From: Acidobacteriota bacterium | Lineage (GTDB): Bacteria > Acidobacteriota > Terriglobia > Bryobacterales > Bryobacteraceae | Assembly: GCA_017307505.1 (NCBI GenBank) | Contig: JAFKEE010000027.1 | Location: forward strand, 1-64,000 | DNA length: 64,000 nucleotides | Direction: 5' to 3' | Part shown: positions 22,191 to 34,016 of the stretch, piece after piece | Numbering within the stretch: the first letter of the stretch is position 1 | Layout: every line of letters begins with the position of its first letter | Notes under the pieces: generated by a model | Seen by the model: the letters and a program-made list of their open reading frames with translations, nothing else | The model's database searches: none | What the model was told of the DNA's origin: nothing | Position numbers and translations under genes: made by a program

Positions 22191-22260
22191 GGGAACACCT
22201 CCGGGCTATGAGACTATCGCATCTGTTGACCCGTTGCACCGCTCCGCCCGCCGCGACCGC

Positions 22261-22266
22261 TATTCT
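22261..22266 (+). promoter_or_regulatory. TATTCT -10 box, 7 nt before the MFS start
   Basis: TATTCT, then seven bases, then GTG at 22274. This spacing suits a leaderless mRNA. Confidence 0.4.
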
Positions 22267-22273
22267 GGAACGA

Positions 22274-23566
22274 GTGAGTGGATTCGTCGACATTCTCAGG
22301 ACCAACCGCAATTACCGGAATTGCTGGATGGGGCAGATCGTCAGCGAGGTCGGCGACCATTTCAATTCCATCGCCGTCCTCAGCCTGGCCCTGCACCTGA
22401 CGGGCAGCGGAGCTACCGTGGGCGCGGTGATGATTGCGCGCGTCCTGCCGGCTATCCTCGCCGGGCCTATTGCGGGGCTGGTGCTGGACCGCATGGACCG
22501 GCGCAAGATCATGGTCGCTTCCGACCTAATGCGGTGCGTGGTCGCCCTCCTGCACATCCTGCTGCTGACTTACCGGGAAACGTGGCTCCTCTACGTTCTG
22601 AGCGGACTGCTGATGTTCGCGTCGCCGTTCTTCAACAGCGGGCGGTCGGCGATTCTGCCGCGGATCGCAAGCCGGGAAGAGCTGCATAGCGCGAATGCAC
22701 TGACGCAGACGACCTCCTGGCTCACGCTTTCCATCGGGACCATGCTGGGCGGGATCTCGACGGGGGCGCTCGGCTACCGCTGGGCCTTCGTGGCCAACGC
22801 AACGAGCTTCCTGTTCAGTGCGCTGGCGATCTGGAGCCTGAAATCGCCGGAGGGGCATTTCCGGCCCCTGCGCGATGTGAATGCGGCGAAGCGGCAGTCG
22901 AACTACCAGGAGTTCCGGGAAGGGCTGCGGTATATGTCCACGCGGCCGCTGATCCTGGGGATCGCGCTGCTGGGGGTGGGCTGGTCCACCGGCGGCGGCG
23001 CGGCGCAGGTGCTGTTCACGCTCTTCGGCGAGGTGGTGTTCAAGGCCGGGCCGAAAGGGATCGGCCTGATCTGGAGCTTCGCCGGAATCGGACTGGTGCT
23101 GGGCGGCATGCTGGGGCACCGCATGGGGCCGAAGTACACGTTCGAGCGCTACAAACATGCCGTGACCATTGCGTTTTTCCTGCATGGCTTGTGCTATGTG
23201 ATCTTCAGCGTGATGCCGGAGATCTGGGGCGCCATGATCTTCATCGCGTTCTCGCGGGTGGCGATGGGCTTCAACTCGGTGCTGAACCGCACCATTCTGC
23301 TGCTGCACATTCCGGACGGGTTGCGCGGGCGCGTGTTCACGACGGTGGAGACCATGGCGAATGCGGTGATGATGCTTTCCATGGGCGCCGCGGGCGTCGC
23401 GTCGACGCACTACTCGGCGCGCGAGATCGGCGTCGTGGCGGGCGGCCTGAGTGCATCGACGGCCTTGTTCTGGGCATGGGCTAACGCTTCGGGCAAGCTC
23501 ACAGAGCCCGAGCGGGACTGGCAGGAGCCGAAGCGCGAGTTCAGCGAACCTGTAACGCCAGCGTAA
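22274..23566 (+). CDS. MFS transporter (EntS/DHA3-like, MFS_3)
   Basis: 430 aa from the GTG at 22274 (an in-frame ATG at 22208 would add 22 residues with no membrane character). Twelve membrane helices are expected. The loop 2-3 motif reads GLVLDRMDRRKIM, close to the MFS signature A, and the start MGQIVSEVGDHFN is characteristic of this drug/siderophore exporter group. Its last 26 bp overlap the convergent GT-thioesterase gene. Being next to the carrier-protein cluster, it could export that product, although it lies on the opposite strand. Confidence 0.83.
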   Translation: MSGFVDILRTNRNYRNCWMGQIVSEVGDHFNSIAVLSLALHLTGSGATVGAVMIARVLPAILAGPIAGLVLDRMDRRKIMVASDLMRCVVALLHILLLTYRETWLLYVLSGLLMFASPFFNSGRSAILPRIASREELHSANALTQTTSWLTLSIGTMLGGISTGALGYRWAFVANATSFLFSALAIWSLKSPEGHFRPLRDVNAAKRQSNYQEFREGLRYMSTRPLILGIALLGVGWSTGGGAAQVLFTLFGEVVFKAGPKGIGLIWSFAGIGLVLGGMLGHRMGPKYTFERYKHAVTIAFFLHGLCYVIFSVMPEIWGAMIFIAFSRVAMGFNSVLNRTILLLHIPDGLRGRVFTTVETMANAVMMLSMGAAGVASTHYSAREIGVVAGGLSASTALFWAWANASGKLTEPERDWQEPKREFSEPVTPA

Positions 23567-25577
23567 GATCGGCCTTCATGGTGGAGAGCAAGGCGGCCTG
23601 GGCGGGTTCCAGGAAGAAATGTCCGCCCTTGAACTCGGAGTGCCGGAAGACCTGGGTGGTCTGCAGACCCCAGGCCGCCAGGTGCTCGGCCGTGACGTTG
23701 GGATCGGCCTCGCCGCCGTAGGCAAAGAGCGGGAGGTCGAGCGGCGCCTGGGCTTCGTAGGCGTAGTGGCGGTAGAGGCGGGCGTCGGAGAGCAGCGCCG
23801 GCAGGGCCAGTTTCAGCAGTTCGGGGTTGTTCAGAACGCTGGGGGGGAAGCCTTCCAGGCGGCGCAGTTCCTCAATGAAGTCGCGCATGGAGGGTTCCGG
23901 CGGCGGGACGTGGTTGAGGCGGTACTGGGGGGCGCGCGCTCCGGAGACGTGCAGGGAGACGGGCATCGGCAGCCCTTCGCGGCGGAGCGCCCGGGTGAGT
24001 TCAAAGCTGATGCCGGCGCCCATGCTGTGGCCGAAGAAGGCGAACGGGGCGTCCAGGAAGGGGCGCAGCTCTTTGAGGATCGCCTCGACGAGCGGGCCCA
24101 TGCGTTCGAAGGCGGGTTCCGCGGCACGGGTTTCGCGCCCGGGCAGACGCACCGGGACGACGCAGGCGAGCGCGCTGAGTTTGTCGCGCCAGGCGCGGTA
24201 GGGCAGGGCTCCGCCGCCGGCCCAGGGGAAGCAGAAGAGCTTCAGGCGGCCGGCCGGGATCTCCTCGATGCCCGGCAGCCAGGGGTTGCTGTCCGGCTTG
24301 GCGGCCGCGGTATGTTGCTTCAGCCGCAGCGCGAGCAGTTTCTTTTTCTCCTCGCTCAGGGCAGGCCGGACGGCCGGAGCGGGGGGCTGCTTCTTGGGTT
24401 TATGGAGCAGGCCTTCGAGGACACTCTCGAAGGGCAGCACGTTGAGGTTGGCGGCGTATTCCAGCGCGGCTTTGCGCGACGCGGCGGCGAGCTCTTCCCA
24501 GTGCGGCTGGTCTGAGGTGAGGCGCTCCATCACTTTCTGCCAGGGGACGACGTCCTGCGGAGGGACCTCGGCCACGGGGACCATGCTGGCGTCGACCGCC
24601 GGTTTGTACTTGACGATGGGGTTGACGCGGATCAGGTAGGGGACGCCGAGTTTGGCTTCGTGAAGGCCGCCGACGTCGCTGGCGACCACCGGGATGCCGC
24701 GGGACATCGCTTCCAGCACGATGCGGGAGCGCGCCTCGGCCCAGACGGAGGGCACCAGCATCACCTTGGTCTGGCGCAGCAGCCCGTCGATGTTGTCCAT
24801 CTGGTTGAGGAGCGTAATGTTGGGCCGCTGACGCATGGCCTCGAGCTCTTCGGCCTGCGTGCCCCAGGTAGGGATGGCGGCGAAAGGGACGCCGGGCATG
24901 CGGTCCGCGAGGTCGAGGAAGATGGAGATGCCTTTGACGGCGCAGGGATTCACCATCGCGACATAGGGATTCTCGAAACGGCCCAGCAGGGGGAAGTTGT
25001 GCGTGTCTTCCAGGAGGGAGATGGGCACGTGGATGGCGTCGATGCCGCTCCATTCCCGGACGTAGCCGGCGACGTAATGGCTGACGCCGACGGTGGCGTC
25101 GGCGCGCTTCAGGACTTCGGTCTTGGAGGCGGAGACCATCGAACTGTCGGGCCCGAAGGGGACGGCGATGGTGGCTCGCACCAGATAGACGACGCGCGCG
25201 TTGGGAGCCTTGACGGCGATGTCGAACAGAAGCTGGCCGGGGTCGTCTGTCGAGGTGATGATGATGTCGGGCTGGAAGTCGTCGATCTGCGCCTGGAAGA
25301 AGCCGCGCAGGTGTGGGCTCAACGACAGGACGCGGACCGCCACCCCACCCAGGTCGTAGCGGATGCCGGTGCCGTCCGTGCCGTCAGCTTCCACTCCGCG
25401 GGCCTTGAGGGCAGCCAGCATGGCGTCGTGGCCTTCCTGGCCGAATTGTTCGACCCGGGTGACGACGCGCACGGCGTGGCCGCGGGCGGCCAGGGCCTCC
25501 ATCAACAACCGGTTCGATTTGTCGCCACCGCCGAGGGAAGGGAAATAAGTGGAGTTGTGCGCCAGCAGAACCTTCAC
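23541..25577 (-). CDS. GT4 glycosyltransferase-type II thioesterase fusion
   Basis: 678 aa. Residues about 1-395 are a GT4 glycosyltransferase: an N-terminal Rossmann-like LLAHNSTYFPSLGGGDKSN, and EARSRIVLEAM, the EX7E motif, in the donor site. A short linker, LSEEKKKLLALRLKQ, follows. From about residue 435 to the end is a GrsT/surfactin-type thioesterase: FPWAGGG, VRLPGRE, nucleophile Ser in GHSMGAG, Asp in GEADPN, and His in KGGHFF, so the catalytic triad is complete. A GT fused to a thioesterase is rare. The start ATG overlaps the stop of the upstream GT4 gene (ATGA). Likely it glycosylates and releases a product tethered to the ACP of gene 26800. Confidence 0.82.
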   Translation of the reverse strand: MKVLLAHNSTYFPSLGGGDKSNRLLMEALAARGHAVRVVTRVEQFGQEGHDAMLAALKARGVEADGTDGTGIRYDLGGVAVRVLSLSPHLRGFFQAQIDDFQPDIIITSTDDPGQLLFDIAVKAPNARVVYLVRATIAVPFGPDSSMVSASKTEVLKRADATVGVSHYVAGYVREWSGIDAIHVPISLLEDTHNFPLLGRFENPYVAMVNPCAVKGISIFLDLADRMPGVPFAAIPTWGTQAEELEAMRQRPNITLLNQMDNIDGLLRQTKVMLVPSVWAEARSRIVLEAMSRGIPVVASDVGGLHEAKLGVPYLIRVNPIVKYKPAVDASMVPVAEVPPQDVVPWQKVMERLTSDQPHWEELAAASRKAALEYAANLNVLPFESVLEGLLHKPKKQPPAPAVRPALSEEKKKLLALRLKQHTAAAKPDSNPWLPGIEEIPAGRLKLFCFPWAGGGALPYRAWRDKLSALACVVPVRLPGRETRAAEPAFERMGPLVEAILKELRPFLDAPFAFFGHSMGAGISFELTRALRREGLPMPVSLHVSGARAPQYRLNHVPPPEPSMRDFIEELRRLEGFPPSVLNNPELLKLALPALLSDARLYRHYAYEAQAPLDLPLFAYGGEADPNVTAEHLAAWGLQTTQVFRHSEFKGGHFFLEPAQAALLSTMKADLTLALQVR

Positions 25578-26800
25578 GACTGCTCCTTCTTCTGCTTGAG
25601 CCGCGCGAGCAGCAGGGCTCGCTTGGCCGGATCCAGCGCTTTCAACTTCTCCTCCGTGGATTGGACTCGTCTGTGCTCGCCGATGGGTTGCTTTGCTGGG
25701 GTGAGGCTGAGCAGGTGCCGTTCAAAATCGGCCACATCGAGCGTGGAGACGAAGCGCAGGCCGGCGTCACGGGATTGGCGGGCCTCGCGCCAGTAGGCGG
25801 ATTCATTGGTCAAGAGAGTGTGCAGGGCCGCGGCCCAGGGCTCCAGGTCCTGCGGCGGGACGATGGCCCGGGGCATGAGGGTGTCGTCGAAGGTGCGCTC
25901 ATAGCGCTCCACCGGGCGGACGGGCACGACGAAGCCGGTGCCGGCCTTGGCTTCCATGAGACCGCCGGAGTTGCTGGCAATCACCGGCAGACCGCGCAGC
26001 ATGGCTTCCATGGCGATGAGGCCGAAGCCTTCGTACCAGACAGAGGGCATCAGGAGGAGCCGGGCCTGCTCCAGCACTTCCTCGATGTCCGGAACATTCT
26101 TGAGTAAACGTGTGTTGGGCAGGCGTTCGAGGGCGGCGCGGTCGGCGGCGGTGGTCCCCCAGCCGTTGAGGGCGGCAAATTCGATGCCGGGGAAGCGGGC
26201 GGCCAGATCGAGGAAGATGCTGACGCCCTTCACCGCGCAGGGATTGATCATCAGTACGAAGCCCGAACCGAAGCGGCCGAACTGCTTATAGGGCGGCTGG
26301 CCGTAGAGGGGCGGGTGGATGACGACCGCCTCGCGGCCCAGGTGTTCCTGGATGTAACCTGCCATGTGATGGCCGATGGCGACCACGCTGACGGCCTGGC
26401 GAGCCATTTCCGTGCTGGCGTTGTCACGGTTCCAGCTTTCGGGGCCGAAGGGATAAAACTGCGGGGTGTGGGCGAGATAGACGATGCGGCCCGGAGCGAC
26501 GGTGCCGGCTTCGCGCAGCAGCACATGGCTGACGTCCTCACTGGAAACCAGGACCCAATCGGGCTGGAACGTCTGGATGTGCGTGGCGAGCAGGGGTACG
26601 CGGAAGGAGAGGTCCTTCACCCCGTGGATGGTGATGCCGTCGACCACGGTGGTGCGATCGGCCGCGCCGTCGACAGTGGGCGAGACTACCACGCATTCGT
26701 GGCCCTGCGAGGCCAGGTGCCGCAGCCAGGCCAGATTCGAGCGCGTGGAACCGCCGCGCGGCGGGTCGTACGACGCGTTCGAGGTGAGCAGAATCCGCAT
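25574..26800 (-). CDS. GT4 glycosyltransferase with NRPS-like C-terminal tail
   Basis: 408 aa. Tandem paralogue of the GT domain at 23541: both share NPCAVKG(I/V)SIFLDLA and the N-terminal LL(A/T)(H/S)N(S/A) strand. EX7E is EGFGLIAMEAM. The C-terminal LDPAKRALLLARLKQKK tail resembles the linker in the neighbouring fusion and short linkers found before NRPS modules, hinting at docking with a carrier protein. Its ATG overlaps the FkbH stop (TAATG) and its TGA overlaps the next ATG, so the three genes form one transcript. Acceptor and sugar donor are unknown. Confidence 0.83.
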   Translation of the reverse strand: MRILLTSNASYDPPRGGSTRSNLAWLRHLASQGHECVVVSPTVDGAADRTTVVDGITIHGVKDLSFRVPLLATHIQTFQPDWVLVSSEDVSHVLLREAGTVAPGRIVYLAHTPQFYPFGPESWNRDNASTEMARQAVSVVAIGHHMAGYIQEHLGREAVVIHPPLYGQPPYKQFGRFGSGFVLMINPCAVKGVSIFLDLAARFPGIEFAALNGWGTTAADRAALERLPNTRLLKNVPDIEEVLEQARLLLMPSVWYEGFGLIAMEAMLRGLPVIASNSGGLMEAKAGTGFVVPVRPVERYERTFDDTLMPRAIVPPQDLEPWAAALHTLLTNESAYWREARQSRDAGLRFVSTLDVADFERHLLSLTPAKQPIGEHRRVQSTEEKLKALDPAKRALLLARLKQKKEQS

Positions 26801-29073
26801 TAGTACTGCCCGTTCTCGCCTGCCTGCCCTTCCTGGCGGAGCAGGGCCTGGACTTCCTCATCCGACAGCCCTTCGATCTCGGCCAGAAGGGCGTGATACT
26901 CGTCGGCGTCCATGGCGCCCAGTTGGTGTGCTTCGATTGTGCGCGCCAGTTCGCCCAGGGTCAACGTGCCCGAGTAGACGTCGTCCACCGACAGTTCGAC
27001 CGCGAACTCCTCTTTGACTCGCATGAGCAGGAGGACGGCGAGCAGGGAATGGCCGCCGAGGTCGAAGAAGTTGCTGTGAACCGAGGTGGCCGGGCGCTCG
27101 AGCAGTTCCGTCCAGATGGCGGCGAGGCGGCGCTCGACATCGCTGGCCGGGGCGTCCGGAGCGGTGGAGTGAGCCAGAACGGCCTGGGCCTGGCGGCGCA
27201 CTTCGGTTACGACTTGAGCCGGGGTGCGCAGATCGTGCGCGATGCGGGCGAACTCGACAAACCGGCGCACGGCCGGCGCTTTCGGTTTGGATCTCGCCTT
27301 GGGTTCCGCCGCTCCGGCGTCCAGGCGATTTGGTTTCCAGCGCAGGGCTTGGAGTTCGGTGGCCGGGAAGCGGTAGAGGATTTCGTCACCCGTGGTCTCG
27401 ACGGTGCCGAAGCCGATGCTATCGAGGAACTGGCGGGCGGGCATGTTCTTGGACGTGGGCCGGAAGGCGACGCTGACTGTGTAGATTCCGTTGTCGAGGG
27501 CCTCTTCGGCCAGGGCCGAGATCATGCGATGTTCGACGCCGCGGCCGAGGGCTCGGCAGCTGAGCAGGAAGGTGTCGACGCGCATCTCGCTCTCGAGACG
27601 CTCCACGATGAGGACGCCGACCAGGCCGTACTCGCCGAAACGGTCGGACACTTCGCCGGTGAAGCAGCGGTAGCGGCCGTCGGCCAGCAGAGCCTGGATC
27701 TCCTGCTCGTTGCGGCGGATGGTGGTGCAGTTGAACTGGTTGGTGCGCTGGGTGAGTTGCGCGACGCGGCCCAGCCGTTCGGGCGCCAGGGCCTGGAAGT
27801 CCACGCGCAGGTTCAGGCCGGCGATGAACTCCTCCAGGCTGGTGGCCCGTTTGATTTCGCGTCCGAACTCAAGGGTCTGGGCGTAAAGAGTGCTGCGCTG
27901 ACGGTCTTCCTCGGTGATTACCGGATGGTCGAAGGCCCAGATGTGGCGGAGGAATTCGGGCAGCTCCTCGATGTCCTCAGGGAGGACGAGCGGCAGAGCT
28001 TCGGGGGCGCCGTCCGCGACTTCCGCGCATTCCTTGGGGTTGTCGTCGAGGAAGATGAACGTGTCCAGGCCGACATTCAGTTCCTCTGCGAGGGAGGCCA
28101 GGTTGGCGGCCTTCGATTCCCAGTTCAGCCGCCAGGCGGTGAAGTGGCGCAACTGGAGGGGGAACTCGGGGTGGGCGGCGAAGGTGTCGAAGACGTCCTG
28201 ATCGTTGTTCTTGCTGGCCATGACCAGCAGCATGCCGGCTTCACGCTGGTCGAGGAGGAACTCGTGCAGCATGCGGCGCGGGCCATCGAGTGTGACGCCG
28301 GCCGGGCCGTCCTCGCCGCAGATGCCGCGCCACAAGGTGTTGTCGCAATCCACCGCGATGACCTTGTAGGGGGGCATGAACATCGCCTGGGCGCGGCGGA
28401 CCAGTGCGGTGCCCAGCGCGGCGAAGTACTGTTCGGTGTATGGGATCCGCCCCAGGCGCTGGCCTTCGGCATCGTGCTGGTTCTCCACCGGATAAATCCG
28501 GTCGATCTCGGTGTAGTCGAGGCACTGGATGCCGGGTGTCTCGCCGAGTGTGTGCTCGATCACACGCCGGGCGCGTTCGAGGCTGGCGGAGCAGGCCGGA
28601 TCGGCGGCAAATTCGGGGGAAGGAGGGCAAAGGCAGAACACGATGGGCGCGGGCAGGTGTGAGGGCGCTGACCGCAGCGCGGCGGTCAATTCCTGGACGA
28701 TTTCTTCGAGGCGTTGCAGGGTCTCGGTATCGTAACTCTCGAAGTGGCCCAGATCCTCATAGCGGCATAACACCAGGTTCACGCCATGGTCGTTCTGGGC
28801 GAACTCTCCGGACGGATCAAGCACGGTCTGCAGGATCTGGTCGTAGGGCGCGAAGCGCAGATCCAATTCGCGGTTCAGGACCCGGCCCCAGAATGCCAGC
28901 ACGGGCCGGATGGGTTCGGCCGTAAAGTTGGCGCTGACAGCTACGCGGAAGGTCGGGTGATGCGGCTGGTGACTGTTGTTGGATTCGTTCACTGGTTTGT
29001 TATTCGCTCGCGGCAACAGGCCGCGTTCAAGGTCAGGTGGGCAGAATCTCGAGGCTCTGGTTCCCATAGCCAT
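26800..29073 (-). CDS. FkbH-like HAD domain protein fused to an acyl carrier protein
   Basis: 757 aa. An N-terminal region (about 41-230) of the FkbH type is followed by a HAD-IIIC core: Asp242 and Asp244 in VDCDNTLW, a SKNN Ser region, a Lys in WESKAAN, and LDDNP. A GNAT-like part with FGEYGLVGV and the SCRALGRGVE segment follows. At the C-terminus is a PCP/ACP domain with the phosphopantetheine Ser676 in LGGHSL, and a final EIEGLSDEEVQALL tail. FkbH proteins form glyceryl-S-ACP from 1,3-bisphosphoglycerate, so this one could load its own ACP. The upstream ATG has a weak GGGA site; an in-frame GTG at 28992 is possible. It is first in a three-gene operon. Confidence 0.85.
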   Translation of the reverse strand: MAMGTRASRFCPPDLERGLLPRANNKPVNESNNSHQPHHPTFRVAVSANFTAEPIRPVLAFWGRVLNRELDLRFAPYDQILQTVLDPSGEFAQNDHGVNLVLCRYEDLGHFESYDTETLQRLEEIVQELTAALRSAPSHLPAPIVFCLCPPSPEFAADPACSASLERARRVIEHTLGETPGIQCLDYTEIDRIYPVENQHDAEGQRLGRIPYTEQYFAALGTALVRRAQAMFMPPYKVIAVDCDNTLWRGICGEDGPAGVTLDGPRRMLHEFLLDQREAGMLLVMASKNNDQDVFDTFAAHPEFPLQLRHFTAWRLNWESKAANLASLAEELNVGLDTFIFLDDNPKECAEVADGAPEALPLVLPEDIEELPEFLRHIWAFDHPVITEEDRQRSTLYAQTLEFGREIKRATSLEEFIAGLNLRVDFQALAPERLGRVAQLTQRTNQFNCTTIRRNEQEIQALLADGRYRCFTGEVSDRFGEYGLVGVLIVERLESEMRVDTFLLSCRALGRGVEHRMISALAEEALDNGIYTVSVAFRPTSKNMPARQFLDSIGFGTVETTGDEILYRFPATELQALRWKPNRLDAGAAEPKARSKPKAPAVRRFVEFARIAHDLRTPAQVVTEVRRQAQAVLAHSTAPDAPASDVERRLAAIWTELLERPATSVHSNFFDLGGHSLLAVLLLMRVKEEFAVELSVDDVYSGTLTLGELARTIEAHQLGAMDADEYHALLAEIEGLSDEEVQALLRQEGQAGENGQY

Positions 29074-31882: not shown

Positions 31883-32173
31883 GTGCCAGGATCCGATCCC
31901 AAAATTCTTAAGCCTAAGATTGTTGCGCTCCAGCGCGACACGGCTGCTCTTCTGAAGCTCCTGGGAGGTGATGCGGAAGACCGGTTGCGCTTCTGGGAGA
32001 TCGTGAAGGGCATCACGACGCCGATCCAGTTGGAGATGGCCAGCCACCAACTCGACGTCATGCAGAACATGATCAAGCAGGTAGCCGTGAGCACCAAGGC
32101 GCTGGAGAAAGCGTCCAGGCCCGCTGCCACCAAAGCCACCAAAGCAGCAAAAGCCGCCAAGGGTGGCGCGTAA
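31883..32173 (+). CDS. Small helical protein, candidate TOMM precursor or partner
   Basis: 96 aa from a GTG with a GGAGG site 7 nt upstream (31871-31875). It looks helical throughout, has a KLLGGDAEDRLRFWEI segment, and ends in a Lys/Ala tail with TKATKAAKAAKGGA. No cysteine is present, and Ser/Thr are few, so it is not a typical azole-forming precursor, yet it is the only small gene next to the cyclodehydratase. The stop overlaps the start of the YcaO gene by 11 nt, so they are made together. It might be a precursor with a Ser/Thr core near the C-terminus, or an accessory protein. Confidence 0.6.
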   Translation: MPGSDPKILKPKIVALQRDTAALLKLLGGDAEDRLRFWEIVKGITTPIQLEMASHQLDVMQNMIKQVAVSTKALEKASRPAATKATKAAKAAKGGA

Positions 32174-34016
32174 ATCAACCGTTACCAACCGGCGGGCGAA
32201 CCCTGGGGCTCGCCCGCCGTTGTTGGGTTCCACTCAGATCCTCCTCCTCGGACCCCTCTCAGAAAACAAACTGGCGGCACCGCTGCGCAGGGCATTTGGC
32301 GCAGGTGTCCGGGTCTCTCCTGCATGGCTTGACGGCCCCCTCCCCCAATTAGCTTTGTGTTTGCGCGGCTTCGAGAGCGAAGCGGCACGAGCACTGGCTG
32401 CCGGTGTGGCTTGCCTGGGGGCTGATTTCCGCAACACGGAGTCTCTGCTGGGGCCGGTGGCTGTTCCGGGCCGGGCTGGTTGCCCGGCGTGCGCCCAGGC
32501 CCGGCTCTATGCGGCCTCGCAACAAAGGCCGGAAGACGATGACCGTGACGAATCGATGGCGCTGGCCGCACCGGTATTGATCCGCGAGATGCGGGCCATT
32601 CTGCGCAACGGCCCGCTGGCGTCCCCGCTGCTCGATCACGTCATGGCGATTGACACGCGCGCCTGCACGTCGTCGCTGCATCGGGTGGTGCCGCTGCCGG
32701 TGTGCGCGGTGTGCGGCGGAGCTTCGGTGCACCCGCGCAGTGCTCCGCGCCGTGACAGTGACGGTGTGATGGAGCAACTGGCCGGCGTATTGGATTTCCG
32801 CACGGGGATTGTGTCGCGGTTGGTGATCGAGAGTCCTGAGGAGCTTGGCGTGGCGACACCCATCGTGGCCACCGCGGCACCGCCGCATGTAGTCAGGGAA
32901 GATGGATCGTTGCGGCAGTTGCCCATCGGCTGGGGCAAGGGCCTGGACTTGAGCGGCGCGATCTTCTCGGCGGTGGGTGAGGCGGTGGAGCGGTATGCGC
33001 CTTCGATCCCGGACCCCTCCCGTATCGTCTGGGCTGCGGCCCAGGAGTTGACGGGCGCGTGGCTGGATACGAATCCGGTGTATTCGGAGGAGCAGTACGG
33101 ACGGCCTGGGTTTCCTTACGTTCGCTTTTCTCCACAGAGCGTGCAGCCGTGGGTCGCGGGTGAATGGCTGGATACCCGCGAGCTGGTCTGGCTTCCGGCC
33201 ATCTCGTCGTACCTGGCGATGACGGTGCAGGCGGACCAGTTTCTCTCGCAAGGCACCTCCAACGGGCTGGCTTCGCATCCGGACGGGGACGAGGCCGCTT
33301 TGCGCGCCGTGCTGGAGCTGGTGGAGCGCGACGCGTTCCTGTCTACCTGGCTGACGGGGCGTGCGGCCCTCCGGATTGAACTGGACGATTCGCTGGATCC
33401 GGCGCTGGCGGCTGTGATCGACGCGGTACGCGGGCTGGGTGCGCAAGTGGAACTGTATCGCCTGGAGACGGCGGCCTGCGGGACCGCCGTGCTGTGTCTG
33501 GCCCTCGGCGATGGTGTGGAGTACCCCGGAGCCACGATCGCCCTGGGGGCGGATCTGGATCCTGCCGGCGCGTTGCGGCAGGCGGTGCTCGAACTGGGTC
33601 AGACCGGCCCGCACCTGCGCAAGATGATGCGGCGGGGGACTCTGCGCGCGCCTGCTCGTCCGGAGGATGTGCGCGAGATGATGGACCACGCGGCATGGTT
33701 CTTTGAGCCCGGCCGGGCGAGCGTGTTCGACCGGCTCCGCGGCAGCGGCAAGGTCCCGCTTCGGGCGCTGCTGGAACAGGGCTGCGAACGATCGCTGGCA
33801 TCTCTTGCGGCCGAGTTGGGGCGGGCCGGCGTTCGTGCCGCGCTGGTCGATGTGACCTCGTCCGACATTGCGACGACAGGATTGACGGTGATGCGGGCGA
33901 TCAGCGCGAACCTTCAGCCGCTCTGGTACGGCTATGGAATGGAACGGAGAGTAGTCGAGCGGATCCGGCGGCTGGGATTGCGTGCAGACCTACCTGCCGT
34001 GCACCCCATCTGGTGA
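32163..34016 (+). CDS. Fused TOMM leader-binding / YcaO cyclodehydratase
   Basis: 617 aa. The N-terminal 190 residues form an E1-like leader-peptide-binding domain with the zinc cysteines Cys107, Cys110, Cys181 and Cys184 (GCPAC, CAVC). From about residue 200 the YcaO domain carries the ATP-binding Sx3Ex2ER motif (Ser269, Glu273, Glu276, Arg277) and an ELVERDAFLSTW segment. The C-terminus ends HPIW rather than a PxPxP tail. Such fusions cyclise Ser, Thr or Cys residues in RiPP precursors to azolines. The GTG start is 11 nt inside the upstream gene; no dehydrogenase or transporter of the usual TOMM kind is present. Confidence 0.85.
   Translation: MARKSTVTNRRANPGARPPLLGSTQILLLGPLSENKLAAPLRRAFGAGVRVSPAWLDGPLPQLALCLRGFESEAARALAAGVACLGADFRNTESLLGPVAVPGRAGCPACAQARLYAASQQRPEDDDRDESMALAAPVLIREMRAILRNGPLASPLLDHVMAIDTRACTSSLHRVVPLPVCAVCGGASVHPRSAPRRDSDGVMEQLAGVLDFRTGIVSRLVIESPEELGVATPIVATAAPPHVVREDGSLRQLPIGWGKGLDLSGAIFSAVGEAVERYAPSIPDPSRIVWAAAQELTGAWLDTNPVYSEEQYGRPGFPYVRFSPQSVQPWVAGEWLDTRELVWLPAISSYLAMTVQADQFLSQGTSNGLASHPDGDEAALRAVLELVERDAFLSTWLTGRAALRIELDDSLDPALAAVIDAVRGLGAQVELYRLETAACGTAVLCLALGDGVEYPGATIALGADLDPAGALRQAVLELGQTGPHLRKMMRRGTLRAPARPEDVREMMDHAAWFFEPGRASVFDRLRGSGKVPLRALLEQGCERSLASLAAELGRAGVRAALVDVTSSDIATTGLTVMRAISANLQPLWYGYGMERRVVERIRRLGLRADLPAVHPIW

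Follow-up and report, generated by a model that had tools for sequence, protein, structure and literature searches.

We have analyzed a stretch of 64,000 nucleotides, called here the window, from an Acidobacteriota soil bacterium of the family Bryobacteraceae (assembly GCA_017307505.1, contig JAFKEE010000027.1, positions 1 to 64,000), and found in it an operon of three minus-strand genes that is real and conserved among dozens of relatives. The genes code for an FkbH-like enzyme fused to an acyl carrier protein (ACP), a GT4 glycosyltransferase (GTA) and a second GT4-like domain (GTB) fused to a thioesterase (TE). With somewhat more than even confidence, we read them as a short thiotemplate pathway related to the loading line of nonribosomal peptide synthetases (NRPS), in which glyceryl-ACP would receive a sugar from GTA on the carrier, then be modified or passed on by GTB and released by the TE. 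A wider proposal, which we place slightly below an even chance, is that a clade of GT4 glycosyltransferases (GTs) located near carriers in four phyla glycosylates carrier-bound hydroxy- or aminoacyl units, docking by an NRPS-type pair of acidic and basic helices, the window operon being a minimal load-glycosylate-release form without condensation. The features of the operon are the following.

26800-29073, minus strand: gene 1, FkbH-like HAD glyceryl transferase with fused ACP (757 aa; TIGR01686 292 bits, passing the curated cut-off of 146.65; PF00550 53.3 bits at residues 649-713)
27394-28968, minus strand: FkbH region of gene 1, residues 36-560 (DCDNTLW at 242, FLDDN at 341, Cys506 in SCR)
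26914-27156, minus strand: ACP of gene 1, residues 640-720 (Ser676 in LGGHS)
26830-26904, minus strand: acidic C-terminal stretch of gene 1 after the ACP (LSDEEVQALL), putative docking element by sequence pattern
25574-26800, minus strand: gene 2, GTA, GT4 glycosyltransferase (408 aa; Pfam match; His111; EGFGLIAME from 257)
25577-25636, minus strand: basic C-terminal helix of GTA (LDPAKRALLLARLKQKK), putative docking element by sequence pattern and the GTA model
23541-25577, minus strand: gene 3, GTB-TE, GT4-thioesterase fusion (678 aa; Pfam matches)
24408-25577, minus strand: GTB domain, GT4 fold whose donor site is altered (Arg134 in place of His, EARSR in place of EGFG)
24312-24359, minus strand: basic stretch of the GTB-TE linker (LSEEKKKLLALRLKQ), putative docking element by sequence pattern
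23544-24290, minus strand: type II-like thioesterase domain of gene 3, Ser518/Asp625/His653 (Thioesterase match at residues 446-669; RifR alignment)

The operon and its conservation in Bryobacteraceae

The open reading frames (ORFs) and domain matches, including GT4 families in genes 2 and 3, confirm the three overlapping genes proposed in a preliminary description of this DNA, and Ser676 in LGGHS and the complete TE triad motifs were found where it had placed them. Of the two junctions it gave, TAATG between genes 1 and 2 stands, while the one between genes 2 and 3 is GTGA with a GTG start and not ATGA. The start codon of gene 1 is unsure, as outside the two closest genomes most homologue matches begin at residue 14-45. 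The HAD motifs (DxDxT and DD) are present in gene 1 together with the conserved Cys506, to which we attribute, presumably, a functional role, and the PF00550 match contains the phosphopantetheine serine expected of a carrier. By sequence, the nearest relative of the TE with a solved structure is the type II thioesterase RifR (1.5e-42), whose aligned residues, which we take to be catalytic, coincide with the triad of gene 3; both the HAD motifs and the triad are intact. Unlike RifR and other stand-alone type II thioesterases, this TE is fused to a GT4-like domain. The genome of the window has two genes of the phosphopantetheinyl transferase family, and seven carrier domains were found in it.

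We have surveyed 237 genomes of the same family, 153 of which gave a gene 1 match at E <= 1e-30 (the weaker ones including other FkbH proteins), and examined 80 loci around gene 1 matches from this list, mostly best matches. The gene order, which the preliminary description had proposed to look for in relatives, was intact in 70 of them: 66 plain, three with a fatty acyl-AMP ligase-like (FAAL) domain, an ACP and a condensation (C) domain in front of gene 1, and one with a C domain in front. Chance adjacency of the three genes is ruled out by this repeated order. GTA and GTB are found in one reading frame in 18 of the 70. The remaining ten loci comprise two cut by contig ends (L050, L055), four without the GT pair and four with other FkbH types (L190, L192, L202, L203). 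One of those without the pair, L047, has kept a single GT, adjoining an FkbM-type methyltransferase.

The dN/dS values of four operon domains, calculated against two genomes of the same genus, were between 0.04 and 0.09, indicating purifying selection and ruling out a decaying remnant. The FkbH proteins of the operon form one clade of 77 rows in the FkbH tree, apart from the sampled NRPS-type FkbHs (Shimodaira-Hasegawa-like approximate likelihood ratio test, 99), and the genes that flank the operon vary widely across the examined loci. In a phylum-wide draw of 396 genomes a gene 1 match at 1e-90 appeared in six, the genome of the window and five others, and no GT match was found in the short flanking loci examined around those five. 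Searches of plasmids and phages with GTB-TE gave no match covering 80% of it. An operon of Bryobacteraceae type, with a GTB 72% identical, is also present in a record assigned to Arcobacter (L105, DYJN01000034.1), possibly a mislabelled genome.

Carrier-linked glycosyltransferases and putative docking helices

GTA and GTB are paralogues (37% identical), and AlphaFold2 models, compared by Foldseek, gave confident GT4 folds (of the GT-B type) for both, with mean predicted local distance difference test scores of 92.6 and 93.1. GTA has the GT4 hallmark EX7E, which it shares together with the fold with its structural matches in Foldseek (PimA, MshA and BshA), and keeps His111 and EGFG. BshA, a good structural match, uses the hydroxy acid L-malate as acceptor; the acceptors of these three enzymes are not known to be carrier-bound. 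GTB differs from them in its donor site. Among GTB-lineage rows, Arg replaces His in 27/27 (Arg134 of the window being placed by sequence alignment alone), at a position whose His we take to be catalytic in GT4 enzymes, and the donor loop reads EARSR in 26 and DAKPR in one. A separate set of 21 family rows of GTB had Arg in all, EARSR in 19 and EARGR in two. Glu281 and Lys215 are conserved. Owing to the loss of the His and EGFG signatures, the earlier idea that the loaded unit is glycosylated twice becomes doubtful; GTB may either use a different, perhaps charged, donor or be a binding module.

Relatives outside the family were obtained by scanning genome contigs with the GTB alignment (80 loci among the matches listed). 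In the GT tree, GTA, GTB and the carrier-linked GT4s group apart from six generic GT4 rows, taken from the 43 generic loci, with support 100/97; L141, counted among the 43, sits on a very long branch within the GTB part. Using one carrier profile, we found a carrier within 3 kb of 9 of the 14 non-operon members of the clade, distributed over four phyla, versus none of the 43 generic GT4 loci. All nine keep the His and an EXFG loop, and Gln is found at the His position in L136 and L137, where no carrier was seen.

The contexts of these genes are diverse. Herpetosiphon has an adenylation domain with a peptidyl carrier protein (A-PCP), the GT4 and then C-A-PCP-TE-MFS; the genes of Herpetosiphon aurantiacus (L135, 8097-16761) make a small test system. 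In a Thermoanaerobaculum metagenome-assembled genome (MAG), tblastn shows FAAL-, C-, A- and ACP-like stretches in one protein, after which a GT4 opens a C-A-PCP protein; an Algicola MAG has one ORF in which the GT4 is followed by a partial match to C, then A and PCP. On a Streptomyces plasmid we found an ACP, a second glycosyltransferase unlike GTA, the GT4 and an FkbH with carrier, together with a TE encoded on the opposite strand. In Dactylosporangium, Acrocarpospora, Nonomuraea and Actinoplanes (L130, L133, L139, L140) a free ACP and the GT4 are accompanied by E1-type 2-oxoacid dehydrogenase parts; the E2 part was seen in three of the four and not in Nonomuraea. Nonomuraea and Actinoplanes have a GT1-type enzyme between ACP and GT4, Acrocarpospora has one encoded on the opposite strand, and some of these loci have stand-alone C domains.

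The loader type thus varies (FkbH, E1/E2-type, A domains) beside a constant ACP and GT4. We read the A domain of L129 (DVWHISLVD) as presumably specific for Ser and the first one of L135 (DASTVAAVC) as presumably specific for Tyr. All these loaders would supply hydroxyl-bearing units, glyceryl in the case of FkbH, perhaps glycolyl for E1/E2, Ser and Tyr, and we infer O-glycosylation of the carrier-bound unit. The four actinomycete loci are possible glycosyl-glycolyl pathways. E1/E2-like enzymes of the scl cluster have been proposed to make glycolyl-ACP (PMC6335953). As proposed there, the scleric acid cluster (SclQ1-4, C-A-PCP, TE, MFS) is like the operon in carrying a small hydroxyacyl on a carrier, with TE release and MFS export, and its loader resembles that of L130, L139 and L140; it differs from the operon in its loader, and no glycosyltransferase is seen in the portion of that source available (PMC6335953).

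A second line of evidence comes from the ends of the proteins, compared over 72 loci (the 70 with full order plus L047 and L055). Gene 1 ends in an acidic stretch of the type YxxLLxELExLSDEEVRALL, in its strict form in 57/72; of the other 15, with net charges from -4 to -10, 14 have a related tail by eye, and in L083 the tail is broken off at a stop. A basic helix like LSPEKRALLLxRLRxR closes GTA in 49/72, and in the GTA model it occupies residues 391-407 beyond a low-confidence linker. The most regular basic helix, with the pattern present in 66/72, is that of the GTB-TE linker. The 23 loci without the GTA pattern comprise 17 with GTA and GTB in one frame, three with a helix by eye and three others, a distribution that suggests docking, the helix being lost where fusion to GTB-TE would make docking of GTA unneeded.

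Outside the family, the acidic tail is found on seven of the nine linked carriers and the basic helix on GTs of L129, L132, L133, L135 and L140. The helix is readily recognized on the GT4s of Thermoanaerobaculum and the two Herpetosiphon species, as well as on the Actinoplanes and Nonomuraea GT1-type enzymes; Dactylosporangium and Acrocarpospora have a looser form of it. A matching basic helix opens the C-A-PCP-TE subunit of Herpetosiphon. The acidic ACP tail and the basic GT helices suggest putative docking as at NRPS subunit ends and, with the carrier-linked clade, lend support to the earlier suggestion that a GT may act on the carrier-bound unit.

Several observations weigh against these readings. 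The carrier profile was built partly from seven of its nine positives, two of the nine (L132 and L135) are congeners, and no carrier was found in the surrounding DNA covered for 5 of the 14 clade members (L033, L123, L128, L136, L137), the first a Niveispirillum GT4 whose record is unannotated in that region. Within the family, FkbH-ACP of the operon clade occurs without the GT pair in L043, L054, L199 and L047, in L058 the second Glu of the EX7E motif is missing from GTA, the donor site of GTB departs from GT4 norms as described, and L091, L092 and L200 have no GTA helix though GTA is separate. The Streptomyces and Algicola carriers are without acidic tail and the Streptomyces GTs without basic helix. 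Finally, the charge test is weak, as the basic patterns themselves demand Lys or Arg and 6-9% of random 15-mers are equally basic.

NRPS kinship, proposed pathway and alternatives

In three of the loci with full order (L044, L058, L072) gene 1 codes for AMP-ligase(FAAL-like)-ACP-C-FkbH-ACP, and in L053, at a contig edge, for C-FkbH-ACP. The C motifs are HHxxxDLW or HHxxxDVW. On the FkbH tree a single change suffices for the fused forms, but with support 31. An NRPS module beside the operon in close relatives was the finding that the preliminary description had said would speak against its proposal, and it is there in these 4 of the 70 loci and not in the other 66. We conclude that the operon is NRPS-related, and these fusions weigh against the stand-alone pathway as first proposed. 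The statement that there is no polyketide synthase (PKS) or NRPS synthase in view has held: none was found among the window genes scanned, and no condensation domain was found in the searched genome (99.93% complete). Elsewhere in it there are an A-PCP-TE protein (L215, contig C14 near 52 kb) and an AMP-ligase-ACP-acyltransferase protein (L217, contig C17 near 470 kb). In the vioprolide line an ester-forming C domain joins a fatty acid to glycerate (PMC8949500). As far as that account goes, this starter module (FAAL/C/FkbH/carrier, giving a fatty acyl-glycerate ester) has the same kinds of domains as gene 1 of L044, L058 and L072, whereas the window operon has FkbH-ACP only, followed by GT4 and GT4-TE, with no peptide modules.

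The pathway that we favour would start with FkbH taking a glyceryl unit from 1,3-bisphosphoglycerate and loading the fused ACP, as expected of its family and as the preliminary description had it, to which the TIGR01686 score and the motifs lend weight. GTA would then dock on the ACP via its basic C-terminal helix and attach a sugar to a hydroxyl of the thioester-bound glyceryl unit, a step suggested by the clade association and the docking-type helices. The step of which we are least sure is the next, in which GTB, tethered to the ACP by the helix of the GTB-TE linker, might transfer a second unit whose donor would be unusual, or alternatively might act as a non-catalytic binding module. Release by the TE, retained from the earlier account as part of the pathway, would free a glycosyl-glycerate or transfer it to an acceptor. 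In the few relatives with FAAL-ACP-C in front, this part would begin by attaching an acyl group to the glycerate, in the manner of vioprolide.

The binding-module version, with GTA as the enzyme that glycosylates the carrier-bound unit and GTB as a pseudo-glycosyltransferase that only scaffolds the TE on the ACP, is a sub-case of this pathway, so that the odds of both overlap, and we consider it rather unlikely, if worth keeping in mind. The Arg for His in every GTB-lineage row, the near-invariant EARSR (26/27 and 19/21 in the two sets) and the position of the most regular helix in the GTB-TE linker speak for it; conserved Glu281 and Lys215 and a purifying selection about equal to that of GTA speak against it and would also fit a changed donor. 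A clearly less probable explanation is glycan decoration: glyceryl-ACP would be formed by FkbH-ACP, a sugar or glycan would be assembled separately by the GTs, and the TE, working as an acyltransferase, would move the glyceryl group onto it, in the way that such groups decorate surface polysaccharides. Surface glycans are frequent products of GT4 enzymes, and TE domains can be transferases; FkbH has also been connected with glycans, and our literature search on that link gave nothing to the point. Against such decoration, the scan of 14 neighbouring window proteins (two had no Pfam match) showed neither a flippase, a polymerase or a priming transferase nor an amino-sugar gene, the GTs bear NRPS-like helices and most of their kin (9/14) lie near carriers.

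It appears improbable that the operon contributes to a more extensive pathway to a lipopeptide or polyketide with other enzymes elsewhere in the genome, as the FAAL-ACP-C-FkbH-ACP fusions of the relatives and the A-PCP-TE and AMP-ligase-ACP-acyltransferase proteins might indicate, given a nearly complete genome where no condensation domain was found and neighbours that change from locus to locus. Supply of glyceryl-ACP for a tetronate or methoxymalonyl unit is very improbable indeed and was rejected: FkbH and ACP are the common start of both routes in the account available (PMC7489565), but the partner enzymes (FabH-like, acyltransferase/dehydratase, acyl-ACP dehydrogenase, O-methyltransferase) were found neither in the operon nor among the 14 scanned neighbours. 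In the tetronate glycerate-utilisation operon (mad7/8/16/17/18), as presented in that source, FkbH and ACP are likewise proposed to give glyceryl-ACP; the window operon is without its FabH-like ligase, acyltransferase and dehydratase and has GTs and a TE instead (PMC7489565).

Neighbouring genes and significance

One further gene had been suggested to export the product:

22208-23566, plus strand: major facilitator superfamily (MFS) transporter gene, convergent to the operon, a possible exporter, weakly linked (domain search)

The gene is indeed beside the operon here, and a similar one adjoins it in 18 of the 72 loci, including all eight of the same genus (14 convergent and abutting or overlapping, four upstream within 732 bases). 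In seven loci an MFS gene lies farther away, five of these being only 24-27% identical, and at the other 47 none was found in the DNA covered. The link is therefore firm in the genus and not general, which weakens a dedicated exporter role; the MFS part of the Herpetosiphon NRPS, only 23% identical to that of the window, adds little. At 32163-34016 (plus strand), 3 kb from the operon, there is a YcaO protein with a SagD-type match (thiazole/oxazole-modified microcin, TOMM) just below the cut-off and a leader-binding-domain match above it, and downstream of its gene there are a pseudouridine synthase, a beta-galactosidase and an aldose epimerase.

For NRPS and PKS pathways, sugar addition is usually presented, in the part of the review at hand, as tailoring of the finished product (PMC8949500). 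No description of the operon, of its product or of GT4 enzymes acting on carrier-bound units was found in the open-licence literature searched. Compared with the first account, the carrier-linked GT4 clade and the helices add interest, and the NRPS kinship and the doubts about GTB reduce it. If the proposal is true, the attachment of sugar to a building block still on its carrier would represent a step of natural-product assembly about which little is known, a carrier-docked GT clade would make sugar addition a modular assembly-line step usable in engineering, and the window operon would be a short three-gene test system for it. It would further suggest a glycoside or glycolipid which many Bryobacteraceae are apparently able to produce.

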